Shown here piece by piece: positions 1,331 to 39,914 of a stretch of DNA of 64,000 bases. The stretch is from Roseovarius atlanticus (GTDB lineage Bacteria > Pseudomonadota > Alphaproteobacteria > Rhodobacterales > Rhodobacteraceae): contig NZ_LAXJ01000010.1 in the NCBI RefSeq assembly GCF_001441615.1, forward strand, positions 62,001-126,000, written 5' to 3'. Position numbers and translations under genes: made by a program. Positions within the stretch are counted from its first letter, which is position 1, and every line of letters begins with the position of its first letter. The notes under the pieces are model-generated. The model worked only from the letters and a program-made list of their open reading frames with translations, was not told the DNA's origin and did not search any database.

Positions 1331-1528
1331 ATGTCCACCCTCTCTCGCCGCCGCCATGGTCCGTTTCGCACCAGCCCCCGGCCCAGCCTGTTTGACGCGC
1401 TGGACCTTTACCGCCAGCGCCGCGCCCTCGCCCGGCTCGACGATCATGCGCTTGACGACATTGGCGTCACCCGAGAAGAGGCGGACGCCGAGGCGCGCCG
1501 GCCTTTCTGGGACATTACGCGTCGCTAA
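1331..1528 (+). CDS. DUF1127 (YjiS-like) small protein
   Basis: A 65-residue Arg-rich protein. The DUF1127 core is visible as ALDLYRQRRALARLDDHALD followed by DIGVTREEADAEARRPFW. An AAAGGAGA ribosome site precedes the ATG. In Rhodobacter sphaeroides a DUF1127 protein binds RNA and affects maturation of CcsR small RNAs; whether this copy does so is not known, though a CcsR-like array lies elsewhere in the window (39.0 kb). It is divergently transcribed from a LysR gene that may control it. Confidence 0.85.
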   Translation: MSTLSRRRHGPFRTSPRPSLFDALDLYRQRRALARLDDHALDDIGVTREEADAEARRPFWDITRR

Positions 1529-16191: not shown

Positions 16192-16404
16192 TTAGGAGTA
16201 GAAGAGATCCTGGAAAACGTGGCGCACGATGTCTTCGCGCTTAATGCCCATCTCGGCCAGTTCAGCGTCGCTTTTCGCGTGCAGTTCGTCGATCAGCCCA
16301 CGACGCGACATGATGCGGGCGTGTTGTTCGAAACCATCGGCAATGCCGCGGAAGAACCGGCTGAAGAATCCGCCGTGTACAAGATTGGTTGTGCTAGTCG
16401 CCAT
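16192..16404 (-). CDS. DUF1127 small protein
   Basis: A 70-residue protein whose C-terminal half is the DUF1127 core (IMSRRGLIDELHAKSDAELAEMGI, then KREDIVRHVF). The N-terminal half is amphipathic and aromatic (GGFFSRFFRGIADGFEQ). It is the second DUF1127 protein in the window after 1331-1528. It stands alone between trkH and the Ala/Lys-rich gene. RNA binding is inferred from the family only. Confidence 0.82.
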   Translation of the reverse strand: MATSTTNLVHGGFFSRFFRGIADGFEQHARIMSRRGLIDELHAKSDAELAEMGIKREDIVRHVFQDLFYS

Positions 16405-19730: not shown

Positions 19731-19773
19731 CAAAAAATAAAGCCCCCAAGCCGGTCAAGCGAAAGGGAGCTTT
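19731..19773 (-). terminator. riboswitch-linked terminator in the metZ leader
   Basis: On the minus strand AAAGCTCCC pairs with GGGGGCTTT (19765-19773 with 19739-19747, one G-U pair), followed by ATTTTTT. It begins seven bases after the SAM-II aptamer and ends 24 bases before the metZ start, placing it as the expression platform. Confidence 0.82.
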
Positions 19774-19779
19774 CATCCT

Positions 19780-19836
19780 GACCTCTTTAGCGGAGATGTT
19801 TAACGTGGCCCGCAATCCGGTAACAAATCGCCACAA
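19780..19836 (-). ncRNA. SAM-II riboswitch (metZ leader)
   Basis: The minus strand reads GTGGCGATTTG, then TTACCGGATTGC, GGGCCACGTTAAAC and CCGCTAAAGAGG. These are the conserved blocks of the SAM-II pseudoknot: P1 (GTGGC with GCCAC), the AUUUG element, the GUUAAAC strand, and the GCUAAA-GG 3' pseudoknot strand. SAM-II is an alphaproteobacterial class found before methionine genes, in agreement with metZ downstream. Binding of SAM is expected to lower metZ expression. Confidence 0.93.
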
Positions 19837-19995
19837 GTGCCGATGTACGCCGCCGCGCGGTTGGCGTCAACCGATAGCTGCGCGGGCGCGGTTGTGCCCC
19901 CTTTGCACCGTCACGGTGCTGTAACCCAAGCTTCAAGCAACCGTCATATGGCTGGAGTAACTGCTGCCTACAAGATGTAGTAGAAAGGGTCGAAG

Positions 19996-35174: not shown

Positions 35175-37469
35175 TCAGATCAGATCGTCGATCCGGACCC
35201 GCATGGTGACCGTCCCGCTGACCGCCTTTTCCCAGCGCAGGTTGACCTGGTCCTTGTTCGGTCCTTCCTTGCCGTCATAGTAGGGTATGCCGAAATACGC
35301 GTCGCCATTGGCTTCGCGGATCGGACCTTCGGGCACGATCGCTTCGACAGTCTGCGCCCAGGCCTCGAAGGGCAGCTTGGGATGCGGCGACACCACCCAC
35401 GTCTTCTGAGCGCTCGCCTCGGTGTGTTGCAGCACCAGCGGATTCTCCACCTGGATGTTGACGTTGAAATACGCGTTGTCCTCGAAGCGGATGTTGCGGA
35501 ACCGCTCGAAATTTAGGGTCGCAAAGCTGGTGTCGATGCCCTCGAACCGGTCGATCGGCCCGTCGATCAACCGCACCGTGTTACCCGTCACCGTCAGCCC
35601 GTTGATGAAATGTCCCGGTCCATAGGGCTTCACCGACAGGAAGTTGAACGAGGGCGCGGTGCTCTGGCTCAGAAACACGTTGCTGGTGATCGACAGCGCG
35701 CTGAACGAGAATTCGCTCGAGAAATCGGGCGCTTCGTCATACTCGTTGGTCCATTCGATAGACCCGTCGCAGATATAATTGCCGGTGAACGTACCCCGGT
35801 TGTTGGTCCGCGCCATCACGAAGATCGCGCTGCGCGGCCCTGGATCAGCGCCGTCTCCCTGAAAGCAATGGTTGCCCATGATCACGCTCGACGAGCCCGC
35901 AAGGATCGCGAAATGCCGGAAGAAGTTGCAGCGGCAGTTGCGGATCTTGATGTCGTTGCCGTTGCAATTGACCCCGATCGTCGTCCGGTTCGGCACCAGG
36001 ATTGGACTTTCCCGCGACAAGAACTGGCAGCGGTCGATCATCATGCCCTGGTCGCCCTCACCGTGGCTGGTGATGCCCCGGTCGCGCGGCTGGGTAAAAA
36101 AGCAGTCGCGGAAATGGATGGCCGATCCGGCGGGCGGCAGCAGAACGGCACTGCAATCGCCGCCGCACTGGAACTCGATATTCGACACGGCGAATTTCGA
36201 GATCTGGGCGAAGCCACTGAAATCCCACATATACTTGAACCGCCTGAACGTATAGTTCTGGGTGCCTTCGGCATCATAAAGCGGCTGGCTCAGCGTCACG
36301 GTCTGCGCGCCCACGTTCTTGTCGCGCACGTAAACCTCGCGCCCCACCCCGTTGCCGGTGACCAACGATCCGATCTGGATGTTGGCCACATTCGCCACGT
36401 TGGTCAGGCGCTTGTTGTCGTTGGCGCTATAGGTGGCTTGAGAGGTGACAGTATCGGTGTCCCAGTTCGGCCCCGGAAAGACCGAGAACTGCGCGTTCTT
36501 GATCACGTGCCGCGTCTTGTAGACCGTCCGGTTGGGCACGGCGGCCTGCATGTCCACGGGTTCGCGCAGGGCCACCTTGCGCCCTTTCATGTCCAGTTCG
36601 ACATGGCCCGGGTTGTTCAGCAGCGCCTGGTAGGCTTTCTTGAACGCCATCTCGGTGTCACCACCGAACGCGTCGACATACTTGGAAAAGTCGAAATCAT
36701 TGACCAGTTCGAAGATCTTGTCGACGGGCATGGTCACCTCGCCTTCAAAGCTGACCTTGCTTTGCATGGTCAGGCTGTCGGCAAGATAGTAGGTGCCCGC
36801 CGGCACCAGCACCGTGCGCCCGTTGGCCGCGGCGTCCGCCGCCTCGAAGGCCGGCAGGTCGTTGGTGCTGCCATCGCCAAGCGCGCCGTAGTCACGCACG
36901 TCTACCAGTCCCACAAGATCGCGCAGGAAAACGTTGGTCACATCCTCGATCCGAATGTCGTCGATCCGCAGCACCCCGCCATTCGGCCCGGTCAGGTCGA
37001 TACCGAAATGACCGTAGAGCGGTTGGGTCCCCCAGACCATGTCGACCCCGCCGCGGTTGCCGCTGCCGACGATAGCCGTGACCACGACCACCTCGCCGTA
37101 ATTCGTCAACGTCACGCCGGGGCCTGTTTCGGTCAAACCGGTCACGTGGCTTCCGCCCGGCCCGCCGGCCCAGGCCGCCACCCGCACCGTGGGCAGGTTG
37201 CCCGCCAACGCCTTCACCCGCGCGGTGATCTGCAAGTAACACCCCGGCAGGATCGGCGTCTCGCCCATGTAGCGCAGCCGTTGTATGGCTTGCGTCTTCT
37301 GCATCTCCAGCGCCCCGCCGAAATCCTGGTCTGCGGGGACCAAGGCGGCATTGGCCGCGTTGTCGTAGGTGTCCGAGCCCGGCGTGCCATCCTCCCTCGA
37401 CCAGACGTCCAGCCCGTTCGCGAAGGCCGGCGGCATGAAGACGATGCCATCGGTAATTGCCTTGTTCAT
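35175..37469 (-). CDS. pectate-lyase-superfamily / GH28-related beta-helix protein
   Basis: A 764-residue protein. Residues about 1-190 look like a carbohydrate-binding-type jelly roll (ANGLDVWSREDGTPGSDTYD, then LQITARVKALAG and GVLRIDDIRIEDV). VDVRDYGALGDGSTNDLPAF starts the pectate-lyase-superfamily module at about 195, after which a right-handed beta-helix of N/C/G-rich rungs runs to about 650. A short C-terminal beta region follows. There is no signal peptide. The layout recalls phage tail spikes and surface glycan enzymes. The substrate is unknown, and no phage gene is nearby. Confidence 0.75.
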   Translation of the reverse strand: MNKAITDGIVFMPPAFANGLDVWSREDGTPGSDTYDNAANAALVPADQDFGGALEMQKTQAIQRLRYMGETPILPGCYLQITARVKALAGNLPTVRVAAWAGGPGGSHVTGLTETGPGVTLTNYGEVVVVTAIVGSGNRGGVDMVWGTQPLYGHFGIDLTGPNGGVLRIDDIRIEDVTNVFLRDLVGLVDVRDYGALGDGSTNDLPAFEAADAAANGRTVLVPAGTYYLADSLTMQSKVSFEGEVTMPVDKIFELVNDFDFSKYVDAFGGDTEMAFKKAYQALLNNPGHVELDMKGRKVALREPVDMQAAVPNRTVYKTRHVIKNAQFSVFPGPNWDTDTVTSQATYSANDNKRLTNVANVANIQIGSLVTGNGVGREVYVRDKNVGAQTVTLSQPLYDAEGTQNYTFRRFKYMWDFSGFAQISKFAVSNIEFQCGGDCSAVLLPPAGSAIHFRDCFFTQPRDRGITSHGEGDQGMMIDRCQFLSRESPILVPNRTTIGVNCNGNDIKIRNCRCNFFRHFAILAGSSSVIMGNHCFQGDGADPGPRSAIFVMARTNNRGTFTGNYICDGSIEWTNEYDEAPDFSSEFSFSALSITSNVFLSQSTAPSFNFLSVKPYGPGHFINGLTVTGNTVRLIDGPIDRFEGIDTSFATLNFERFRNIRFEDNAYFNVNIQVENPLVLQHTEASAQKTWVVSPHPKLPFEAWAQTVEAIVPEGPIREANGDAYFGIPYYDGKEGPNKDQVNLRWEKAVSGTVTMRVRIDDLI

Positions 37470-37702: not shown

Positions 37703-38767
37703 CTACGCCATCCCACCCTGCACCAGCCGGTCCGCCAGCCGCGCATAGGCCTCCGACACTGGCCCGTCCCCCAGCGCCACGGGCCGGCCTTCATCCCCGC
37801 CCAGCCGCGTGTCCAGGTCGATCGGCAACGCCCCCAACAGCGGCAGTCCCAGCCGTTCGGCCTCCTGCGCCACGCCGCCATGGCCGAAAATCGCGGCCTC
37901 GTACCCGCATTGCGGACAGTGGAACATCGACATGTTCTCGATCAGCCCCAGCACCGGCGTCTTCAGCGTGTTGAACATGTCGATCGCCTTGCGCGCGTCC
38001 AGCAGCGCCACGTCCTGCGGCGTCGAAACCACCACTGCGCCAGTGGGCGCCGCCCGCTGGCACAGGGTCAGCTGCACGTCCCCTGTCCCCGGCGGCAGAT
38101 CGACCAGCAGAACGTCCAGCTCGCCCCAGTCCACCTGGCTCAGCATCTGCTGGAGCGCGCCCATCAGCATCGGCCCCCGCCACACCACGGCGCGGTCCTC
38201 CTCGATCATCAGCCCGATGGACATCATCTTGACGCCATGCGCCTCCAGCGGGGTCAGGATCTTGCCGTCCGGGCTCTGCGCCCGCTCGGTCACGCCCATC
38301 ATCCGCGGCAGGCTGGGCCCGTGGATGTCCCCGTCCAGCAAGCCCACGCGCCGCCCTTCCCGGGCCAGCGCCACCGCCAGGTTCGACGCCACGGTCGACT
38401 TGCCGACCCCGCCTTTGCCCGATGCCACCGCGAGAATCGATCTGACCCCGCTCGGCCGGATCGAGGCGCTGCCCCCCTCGGGATGCCGCCCGACCTTCAG
38501 CGTGGGCGCCGGAGCCTCAGGCGCCTGCGCGGTCAAGGCCACCTGCGCCGAAGTCACCCCCTCGACCGACAGCGCCGCCCTTTCGGCGGCGGCCCTCAAA
38601 GGTTCCATATGCCGGGCCATCTCGGGGCTGGGCGCTTCCAACACGAATCGCACCTCGCCGCCTTCGAGTCGCATCGCGCGCACCATGTCGCGCGAAATCA
38701 CCGTTCCGCCGTCCGGCAATTCCAGCCGGTCCAGCTCTCGGCGCACATTGTCGAGTATTTCCGTCAT
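37703..38767 (-). CDS. mrp: Mrp/NBP35-type iron-sulfur carrier ATPase
   Basis: A 354-residue P-loop protein. An N-terminal MIP18/DUF59-like domain (1-80) is followed by the deviant Walker A AVASGKGGVGKSTVASNLA (113-131), LLDGDIHGPSLPRMMGV, VDLPPGTGDVQLTLCQ and the cluster-binding FHCPQCGYE. It transfers Fe-S clusters to apoproteins in the cytoplasm. Its end falls just after a GTAGGGYGGG palindrome. The long upstream gap contains the small-RNA array on the other strand. Confidence 0.95.
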   Translation of the reverse strand: MTEILDNVRRELDRLELPDGGTVISRDMVRAMRLEGGEVRFVLEAPSPEMARHMEPLRAAAERAALSVEGVTSAQVALTAQAPEAPAPTLKVGRHPEGGSASIRPSGVRSILAVASGKGGVGKSTVASNLAVALAREGRRVGLLDGDIHGPSLPRMMGVTERAQSPDGKILTPLEAHGVKMMSIGLMIEEDRAVVWRGPMLMGALQQMLSQVDWGELDVLLVDLPPGTGDVQLTLCQRAAPTGAVVVSTPQDVALLDARKAIDMFNTLKTPVLGLIENMSMFHCPQCGYEAAIFGHGGVAQEAERLGLPLLGALPIDLDTRLGGDEGRPVALGDGPVSEAYARLADRLVQGGMA

Positions 38768-38931
38768 GCCCGGTCTCCATGCATCTGCGGCGTCGAAAGT
38801 GGCATTTCTGAAGACAGGTACAACCCCTGTTTCAACACCGCATAAAAAACCAGCAAACTGGTGAAATTAAACGTAAAACATGCTCAGTTCTTCTATGCGT
38901 CAATCGCATAGCTGCGTTGCAGCAAAATTCA

Positions 38932-38959
38932 TTGTGCATGCGCAGCATATCGCTATCTT
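38932..38959 (+). promoter_or_regulatory. candidate promoter of the small-RNA array
   Basis: TTGTGC (38932-38937) and TATCTT (38954-38959) are 16 bases apart and about 50 bases before the first hairpin. In R. sphaeroides the CcsR genes are driven by RpoH-type sigma factors; the match here is only approximate. The remaining gap from 38768 to here shows no coding potential. Confidence 0.4.
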
Positions 38960-39011
38960 TAACTCAACAGCGAACGAAACGGCCACCGCGCCGGACGCTC
39001 GCGAAAACAAT

Positions 39012-39040
39012 CAGGTGCCTCTCCTCCCGTTTGGTACCTG
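39012..39040 (+). ncRNA. CcsR/cuckoo-type small RNA hairpin 1
   Basis: CAGGTGCC and GGTACCTG form an 8-bp stem (one G-U) around the loop TCTCCTCCCGTTT, which contains the anti-Shine-Dalgarno-like CTCCTCCC. It is the first of four such hairpins in 180 bp. Confidence 0.8.
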
Positions 39041-39043
39041 TTC

Positions 39044-39075
39044 GGGATACCGCCTCTCCTCCCTTGTGCGGTCCC
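39044..39075 (+). ncRNA. CcsR/cuckoo-type small RNA hairpin 2
   Basis: ACCGC pairs with GCGGT and GGG with CCC (a two-base bulge between), enclosing a loop with CTCTCCTCCC. Three bases separate it from hairpin 1. It is followed by an extra stem GGGTTC/GAACCC (39086-39102) without the loop motif. Confidence 0.78.
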
Positions 39076-39115
39076 GGCATGACCTGGGTTCCTTTCGAAC
39101 CCAACACTAACGAAC

Positions 39116-39139
39116 GGTCCCTTCCTCCTCCCTGGGACC
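39116..39139 (+). ncRNA. CcsR/cuckoo-type small RNA hairpin 3
   Basis: GGTCCC and GGGACC form a perfect 6-bp stem around TTCCTCCTCCCT, with the full CCTCCTCCC motif in the loop. Confidence 0.8.
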
Positions 39140-39149
39140 CGACGTAAAG

Positions 39150-39190
39150 AACGGCGGCGCCTCTCCTCCTCCCTGGCGTCGCCGTTTTTT
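39150..39190 (+). ncRNA. CcsR/cuckoo-type small RNA hairpin 4 with terminator
   Basis: AACGGCGGCGCC (39150-39161) pairs over 12 bp (one G-U) with GGCGTCGCCGTT (39175-39186) around a loop containing CCTCCTCCC, followed directly by a T-run. It is both the fourth motif hairpin and the intrinsic terminator of the array. Confidence 0.85.
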
Positions 39191-39286
39191 CTTTCTCAAA
39201 CAGCGGCTTCACTACGACAGGCAAATGGGTCATCCTGGTCCTGAGCCGCGCCGAACGCAACCGCTCGCCGCGCCGTCAGACGGCGC

Positions 39287-39596: not shown

Positions 39597-39672
39597 CTGG
39601 GGCGAAGGAAGGCCGCGCGAGAACCGCTTTTCCGGTCCACCGCCCGCACCGCCCCCCGCGGTTCGACGTTTG

Positions 39673-39840
39673 TCCCAAAGGCTGGTTTCCGGGCTTGGCG
39701 GGGGTGCGGATACGCGCGCCTTCCCGGGGCAACGCGCCCCAGTGGCCATCTGCGGTATCCCCCATCCTTACCGTTGCGGGGGCAGCGCCGGACTTGCACC
39801 GGCTTCCCAATTCTCCGCGACCTGCGCGGCACCTTCGGGA
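39673..39840 (-). ncRNA. cobalamin riboswitch
   Basis: Read on the minus strand it has P1 (TCCCGAAGG with CCTTTGGGA), GGGAAGCCGGTGCAAGTCCG, GCGCTGCCCCCGCAACGGTA, the GCCACTG box, GGGAAGGC and GCCCGGAAACCAGCC in the canonical order. These are the diagnostic conserved blocks of the adenosylcobalamin aptamer. It lies 114 bases before the 90-residue gene. The stretch between 39841 and 39914 shows no other feature. Confidence 0.96.
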
Positions 39841-39914
39841 GTCTCACTGTGCCGCCTTCCGGCCCTCGACGCAACCCGCGATTGCGACGTTGAAGCGCTG
39901 TGCGACGACACACG

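Follow-up and report, generated by a model that had tools for sequence, protein, structure and literature searches.

A CcsR-type small-RNA array in Roseovarius whose adjoining DUF1127 gene has probably been lost

The CcsR small RNAs of Rhodobacter sphaeroides and the RNA-binding protein CcaF1 are described as products of one transcript, and a viable ccaF1 deletion is reported not to have been obtained (PMC10253847), so that the separate roles of the RNAs and the protein are hard to part. What, then, is to be made of a CcsR-like array that has no DUF1127 gene beside it? Such an array lies at positions 39012-39190 of the window (the whole stretch of DNA analysed here, 64 kb in length). The DUF1127-CcsR association is said in the same source to be found "often", which already allows for exceptions; at title and abstract level, the primary CcsR/CcaF1 papers aside, neither a published CcsR array without DUF1127 nor a published LysR box at CcsR loci was found.

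The plus strand at 39012-39190, judged by sequence and fold, carries four hairpins with the loop motif, one hairpin without it and a T run at the end. The features of the array are as follows.

39012..39040, plus strand: SL1, loop CTCCTCCC (sequence, fold; helix 1 covaries)
39042..39077, plus strand: SL2, loop CTCCTCCC (sequence, fold; unpaired in the consensus fold of relatives)
39085..39103, plus strand: hairpin without the motif, between SL2 and SL3 (fold; helix 2 covaries)
39110..39145, plus strand: SL3, loop CCTCCTCCC (equals the first half of the Rfam CcsR1 match)
39146..39193, plus strand: SL4, loop CCTCCTCCC, with T run, presumed intrinsic terminator (fold, Rfam match)

The fold reaches -76.2 kcal/mol against a mean of -50.97 (sd 3.74, z -6.75) for 200 dinucleotide shuffles, none of which (0/200) attains this stability. 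Sequence and fold thus bear out the four hairpins of the preliminary description, whose loops (CTCCTCCC/CCTCCTCCC) are of the anti-Shine-Dalgarno kind; the extra motif-free hairpin that it placed at 39086-39102 folds at 39085-39103, and SL4, said to double as terminator, does end in a T run. SL4 is missing from the terminator scan, which was limited to loops of 3-8. Counted on both strands, the 64 kb window has four copies of the motif CTCCTCCC, and 4/4 are on the plus strand within the array. The total is unremarkable (shuffle mean 3.03; at least four in 37/100 shuffles), and it is the clustering that is unusual, with four copies in 153 nt against about 0.004 expected (3.03 per 128 kb). The window also contains a cobalamin riboswitch (RF00174, 117.3 bits) at 39663-39851 on the minus strand, downstream of the array, an alphaproteobacterial SAM riboswitch (RF00521, 60.3 bits) at 19766-19844 on the minus strand, and at 35175-37469 on the minus strand a gene whose 764-aa product contains a stretch resembling pectate lyase (PF12708, 2.9e-9).

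A covariance-model search had been proposed in the preliminary description, and RF02791 (CcsR1) does match the SL3-SL4 part, 39105-39190, with 53.9 bits and E 1.3e-12, below the gathering score of 65.3 bits; RF02344 (ar14) matches 39104-39196 with 45.1 bits and E 2.7e-7, again below gathering (58.8). No CcsR match was returned by the Rfam search at gathering thresholds, and the match appeared when the short stretch was searched in E-value mode. The RF02791 gathering score is reached by 0/60 genus and 7/120 family genomes, and most of the 60 genus genomes, all of which fall below it, carry DUF1127-linked arrays. With stricter filters and the genome of the window included, RF02791 matches were counted in 56/60 same-genus (E 0.01) and 99/120 same-family genomes (E 0.001). 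Among the 150 of 3068 first-look candidates that were scored genome-wide, the array is the sole clear CcsR locus, the next match having E 0.17; the weaker matches (15/16, E 0.17-8.8) were taken as chance, as 12/14 control genomes also give matches at that threshold. The tandem CCUCCUCCC-type loop hairpins, the RF02791 match (E 1.3e-12) and the synteny with DUF1127-linked arrays together uphold the assignment to the CcsR/cuckoo type.

The region between the array and its divergent neighbour is laid out as follows.

37703..38767, minus strand: Mrp/ApbC-type P-loop ATPase gene, divergent neighbour and synteny anchor (Pfam PF10609, 3.9e-97)
38896..38909, plus strand: upstream LysR-type box TGCG-N6-GCAT, fits T-N11-A (conserved in orthologous regions)
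38905..38919, minus strand: VtlR-like 15-mer, 12/15 to the Brucella VtlR motif (motif as given in the text of PMC12595884)
38932..38959, plus strand: presumed core promoter TTGTGC ... CTATCTT (conserved with the boxes, start presumed)
38935..38948, plus strand: second TGCR-N6-GCAT box, overlaps the presumed -35 region (second box in 41/62 regions)
38960..39011, plus strand: leader; the interval that holds the DUF1127 gene in gene-bearing relatives (box-loop distance)

As had been claimed, no DUF1127 gene adjoins the array: the nearest genomic DUF1127 match is at window position 1400, about 38 kb off, and 38959-39012 contains no ATG, GTG or TTG start codon. By the Mrp protein, the nearest named relatives are Roseovarius confluentis SAG6 (94%) and Roseovarius sp. 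MMSF_3350 (93%), and in the 60-genome genus sample a full-length array at 93-97% DNA identity is present in three other genomes. The Mrp-anchored search covered 84 genus genomes. Sixty-two of them gave a close orthologue (about 497 bits or more), whose upstream side was then read; of the 22 that did not, 14 were examined, all but G186, G155, G167, G193, G194, G197, G198 and G135. An Mrp-adjoining array is present in 62/84 genomes, and in every case (62/62) two or more CTCCTCC sites fall within 1.4 kb. In 51 of these 62 loci the promoter is separated from the array by a DUF1127 frame, with Pfam in agreement for 51/51, and in the other 11 DUF1127 is absent from every forward frame at E 0.1. Twelve of the 14 genomes examined without a close Mrp orthologue have arrays, all with DUF1127 (12/12); in the stretch read, G168 has DUF1127 and fewer than two CTCCTCC sites, and G136 has neither. 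A Mrp-adjoining array of ten loops, with the box present and no recognisable DUF1127, was observed in a Rhodobacterales MAG (L234), and in G051 a very long array behind a DUF1127 gene has 14 loop sites in spacing units of about 114 nt (L023).

In a maximum-likelihood tree of 61/62 Mrp proteins (G121 left out, G200 partial, G192 long; a single gene with midpoint root), ten of the 11 DUF1127-less genomes, that of the window included, form one clade (100/98), and the eleventh, G166, stands apart, so that two changes are needed. Because of this branching, the DUF1127 gene has probably been lost twice at the Mrp-linked locus. One DUF1127 gene still present in G166 (L186) falls loosely beside the CcaF1 type, on a long branch and with support of 89/86, and G166 may have moved the gene rather than lost it. 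The named-record loci fetched with Mrp number 76, comprising 41 with DUF1127 and array, five with an array and no DUF1127 (L201, L202, L203, L211 and L234, of which L202 and L203 add nothing beyond G130 and G149) and 30 without an array. With 41 coupled against five uncoupled named Mrp-linked arrays, the DUF1127-array coupling is likely to be the ancestral state, and the locus is most simply read as the outcome of loss from a coupled ancestor. The reverse history, in which the ancestor had no DUF1127 gene at the locus and other lineages gained it by insertion, would find some comfort in the wider family, where 8/29 top-scoring loci (one per genome) are arrays whose surroundings, read over 7-7.5 kb, contain no DUF1127. 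We consider it very improbable, as the ten-genome clade is nested among DUF1127-bearing genomes in the midpoint-rooted tree and the gene is present in 41/46 named Mrp-linked arrays.

If the gene was lost, what drives the array? The motif TGCR-N6-GCAT is present in 61/62 orthologous upstream regions, among them 11/11 of the gene-less loci, and in 0.5% of letter-shuffled regions (up to 250 nt); the box of the window, TGCG-N6-GCAT, is one letter off TGCA-N6-GCAT. A second box is present in 41/62 regions, at a spacing of 39 or 40 nt in 40/41 and of 37 nt in one. The core promoter is conserved together with the boxes in loci with and without DUF1127; a strict sigma-70 scan did not find it. If transcription starts at about 38965, simple arithmetic puts the upstream box at about -69 to -56. 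Among the 29 top-scoring family loci, 25 have the box within 420 nt before the array, and at the DUF1127-less ones it lies 75-260 nt before the array in 6/8. The first box is separated from the first loop by 98-126 nt in the 11 gene-less genomes (125 nt in the window), against 347-460 nt in the 50 genomes having both gene and box. The array does have a promoter of its own, as had been supposed, but not a new one: since box and array stayed and the gap between them is short (98-126 versus 347-460 nt), it is, to judge by these regions, the ancestral DUF1127-CcsR operon promoter, retained after loss of the gene.

The boxes resemble LsrB/VtlR sites at rhizobial small-RNA promoters. Sinorhizobium NfeR1 (ar14, three CCUCCUCCC hairpins) is reported to be activated by LsrB via TGCA-N6-GCAT at -72 to -57 (PMC10746234), and Brucella VtlR is described as chiefly affecting three DUF1127 genes and the sRNA AbcR2 (PMC12595884). 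The VtlR motif as printed in PMC12595884 is fitted at 12-14 of 15 positions in 58/62 regions, and letter shuffles score 12/15 in 7/620 and never higher; the site of the window is weak alone, because its 12/15 is also reached by shuffles, and it is persuasive only together with the relatives, which share descent. The vtlR gene is reported downstream of trxB (PMC7486931), and in the genome of the window a LysR gene is found downstream of trxB (L299:4576-5487), with a DUF6647 gene between the two. Among NCBIfam models GcvA comes nearest to this LysR protein, with a score below cut-off, and by gene order the protein is a candidate LsrB/VtlR-type regulator. Another LysR gene, at 333-1205 of the window, was considered and set aside, its protein being nearest LrhA (below the NCBIfam cut-off) and the trxB-linked gene fitting the reported gene order.

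The boxes might instead bind another LysR protein or none, with transcription relying, as in R. sphaeroides, on a sigma factor of the heat-shock type, a reading that is possible and to us on the doubtful side. The -10 element CTATCT resembles that of RpoH promoters, and R. sphaeroides CcsR1-4 are listed among sRNAs under RpoE, RpoHI and RpoHII control (PMC8307010). The conservation of two boxes at fixed spacing speaks against this reading.

Selection on the RNA itself can be followed in an alignment of 31 of the 62 arrays, picked for similar layout and with G166 left out. Both sides changed in 18/35 consensus pairs, a number equalled by 1/500 shuffles; the cells with two-sided change amount to 91 (shuffled mean 28.2), and 93.4% of cells pair compared with 38-50% in slid controls. 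Further pair types are unexceptional (48 versus a shuffled mean of 44.4; reached by 41/500). The loops of SL3 and SL4 are almost invariant across the 31 arrays, the motif-free hairpin (helix 2) shows two-sided changes in 3/5 pairs, and SL2 is absent from the consensus fold. The preliminary description had named disappearance of the loop motif from close relatives as evidence against its reading; no such loss was seen in the other four members of the closest clade, where 4/4 loops are kept. Further out in the ten-genome clade the motif of hairpin 2 is lost in G150, G173 and G126, and this could suggest that the array is a decaying, functionless remnant of the former operon. We give that view hardly any credence, for neither the SL3 loop nor the SL4 loop varies in any of the 10 rows although Mrp identity to the window drops to 77%, and stem changes compensate at 5/31 pairs within the clade. 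In the three loci concerned (L107, L108 and L109) the stem of the second hairpin is kept, its anti-SD loop is gone, and three motif hairpins are left.

Two DUF1127 genes had been proposed elsewhere in the window, of which that at 1331-1528 (plus strand) is borne out by Pfam (7.7e-11) and that at 16192-16404 (minus strand) is not. The latter is a 70-aa ORF, DUF1127-like by eye, and it was rejected as DUF1127, having no PF06568 match and a best other match of E 0.053. A profile from DUF1127 proteins finds the spot at E 0.0034, a value inflated because the underlying alignment (A1) mixed CcaF1-type proteins with two own DUF1127 types, which were separated afterwards; the ORF could conceivably be a very distant DUF1127 relative. 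Frames of 73 aa resembling it match at E 0.0006-0.0017 in G153, G171, G184 and G130. The local DUF1127 profile was seeded with four sequences of the genome of the window, the 16192 ORF included, and iterated on neighbours, which makes it permissive and leaves the absences reported above unweakened. The 1331-1528 gene lies in a group at 333-2372, where a LysR gene is divergent from it and another ORF, presumably for a Bax inhibitor-1 membrane protein, follows.

Another DUF1127 gene, of 63 aa on contig C67 of the same genome, has a TGCA-N6-GCAT box 114 nt upstream. A LysR box precedes 18/18 examined members of this C67-type group (support 80/73, weak) and 7/7 CcaF1-type DUF1127 genes; for the 1331 type it was found in 0/4, and that type was discarded as a trans partner. 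None was found at L018 or L186 either. Since the C67 gene and the array have the same box, DUF1127 and sRNA may still be co-regulated, from two separate places. It is a tentative further step, and one we rate as less probable than its failure, to suppose that coupling persists in trans, with another DUF1127 protein, expressed from a separate promoter that has the same LysR box, replacing CcaF1 in processing. The boxes of the C67-type group and a report on R. sphaeroides that CcaF1, acting in trans, alters CcsR levels (PMC10253847) speak for such a substitution; on the other side, C67-type proteins are also found in genomes keeping the CcaF1 type, they are without the C-terminal stretch, and the support of their group is weak (80/73).

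As to function, trans-acting translational repression by anti-SD loops, as with NfeR1, is the best reading, in which the four hairpins would probably block mRNA start sites. The pattern GGGAGGAG-N4-10-ATG has 21 sites in the genome against two for the reversed pattern, an excess that may reflect only that SD sequences are common. In four close species, loci were covered for 60/80 sites, and for 10/21 sites an orthologue of at least 88% identity carries the site in two or more of them; this apparent target-site conservation is a lead only, because close species share ribosome binding sites anyway. The candidate sites include those of two SoxYZ-like carriers encoded within the PQQ alcohol dehydrogenase cluster of contig C18, a formate dehydrogenase-like protein, RegA/PrrA, the start of succinyl-CoA ligase beta and a DctP protein. 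CcsR1-4 of R. sphaeroides are reported to target flhR mRNA and to modulate C1 metabolism (PMC8307010, PMC8625941), which the C1 theme of the candidates echoes. No complementary site (-4.0 kcal/mol) was found for a response regulator of the methanol/PQQ cluster that was considered as an FlhR candidate. The PQQ-dependent alcohol dehydrogenase cluster (L362-L363), which contains pqqB and pqqC, has GGGAGGAG before three gene starts within 27 kb.

Taken together, we consider it probable that the locus is an orthologue of the alphaproteobacterial DUF1127-CcsR locus after loss of the ccaF1-type gene, and that a LysR-controlled precursor of anti-SD small RNAs is made from it without CcaF1. The array, its orthology, the absence of the gene and the kept promoter region and loops are read directly from the sequence. 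The ancestral promoter would now directly drive a non-coding precursor of four anti-Shine-Dalgarno hairpins, with a LysR-type activator of the LsrB/VtlR kind presumably binding the TGCR-N6-GCAT boxes. Cleavage of the precursor, probably by RNase E, would yield short RNAs that have SL4 at their end, and their exposed CUCCUCCC loops would pair with GGGAGGAG-type ribosome binding sites, lowering translation of several mRNAs. Maturation of the array would then need no cis-encoded CcaF1.

A clade in which only the protein gene is missing offers a ready comparison with sister species keeping DUF1127, and the gene-less lineage serves as a natural experiment on the dependence of the RNAs on the protein. 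The conserved LysR-type boxes provide a testable link between Rhodobacteraceae CcsR loci and the rhizobial LsrB/VtlR sRNA circuit. More broadly, and with confidence falling slightly short of even, we suggest that this Roseovarius clade dispensed with CcaF1 while the array remained functional, and that Rhodobacteraceae CcsR and rhizobial NfeR1 are branches of one LsrB/VtlR-type circuit joining anti-SD sRNAs and DUF1127 proteins, which can be rewired by DUF1127 gain or loss at the sRNA locus.

Among known systems, CcsR1-4/ccaF1 of Rhodobacter (Cereibacter) sphaeroides (RF02791, the CIN1 locus) has the same tandem CCUCCUCCC-loop hairpins, and orthologues of the present array adjoining the same neighbour gene have, like CIN1, a DUF1127 gene just upstream; unlike CIN1, the array itself has no DUF1127 gene directly upstream, and unlike CcsR1-4 it has a motif-free hairpin between SL2 and SL3 and falls below the Rfam gathering score. 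It is also like the cuckoo RNA family, reportedly described by Reinkensmeier and Giegerich in 2015 as repeated hairpins united by the loop motif and not by stem sequence, in being made of repeated hairpins that share a loop motif. With the VtlR/LsrB regulon (AbcR sRNAs and three Brucella DUF1127 genes) it has in common a LysR-type box before an sRNA locus and before a DUF1127 gene, whereas the AbcR RNAs are another sRNA family and the box here is a predicted binding site. NfeR1/ar14 of Sinorhizobium (RF02344) differs in having three hairpins against four plus one here and in belonging to a different bacterial order; it is alike in that every hairpin is described with a CCUCCUCCC anti-SD loop, by which ntrB is reported to be repressed, in the LsrB-type box upstream of the promoter (TGCA-N6-GCAT in NfeR1) and, as far as the accessible text of the NfeR1 paper goes, in the lack of any mention of DUF1127, in line with the array here (PMC10746234).
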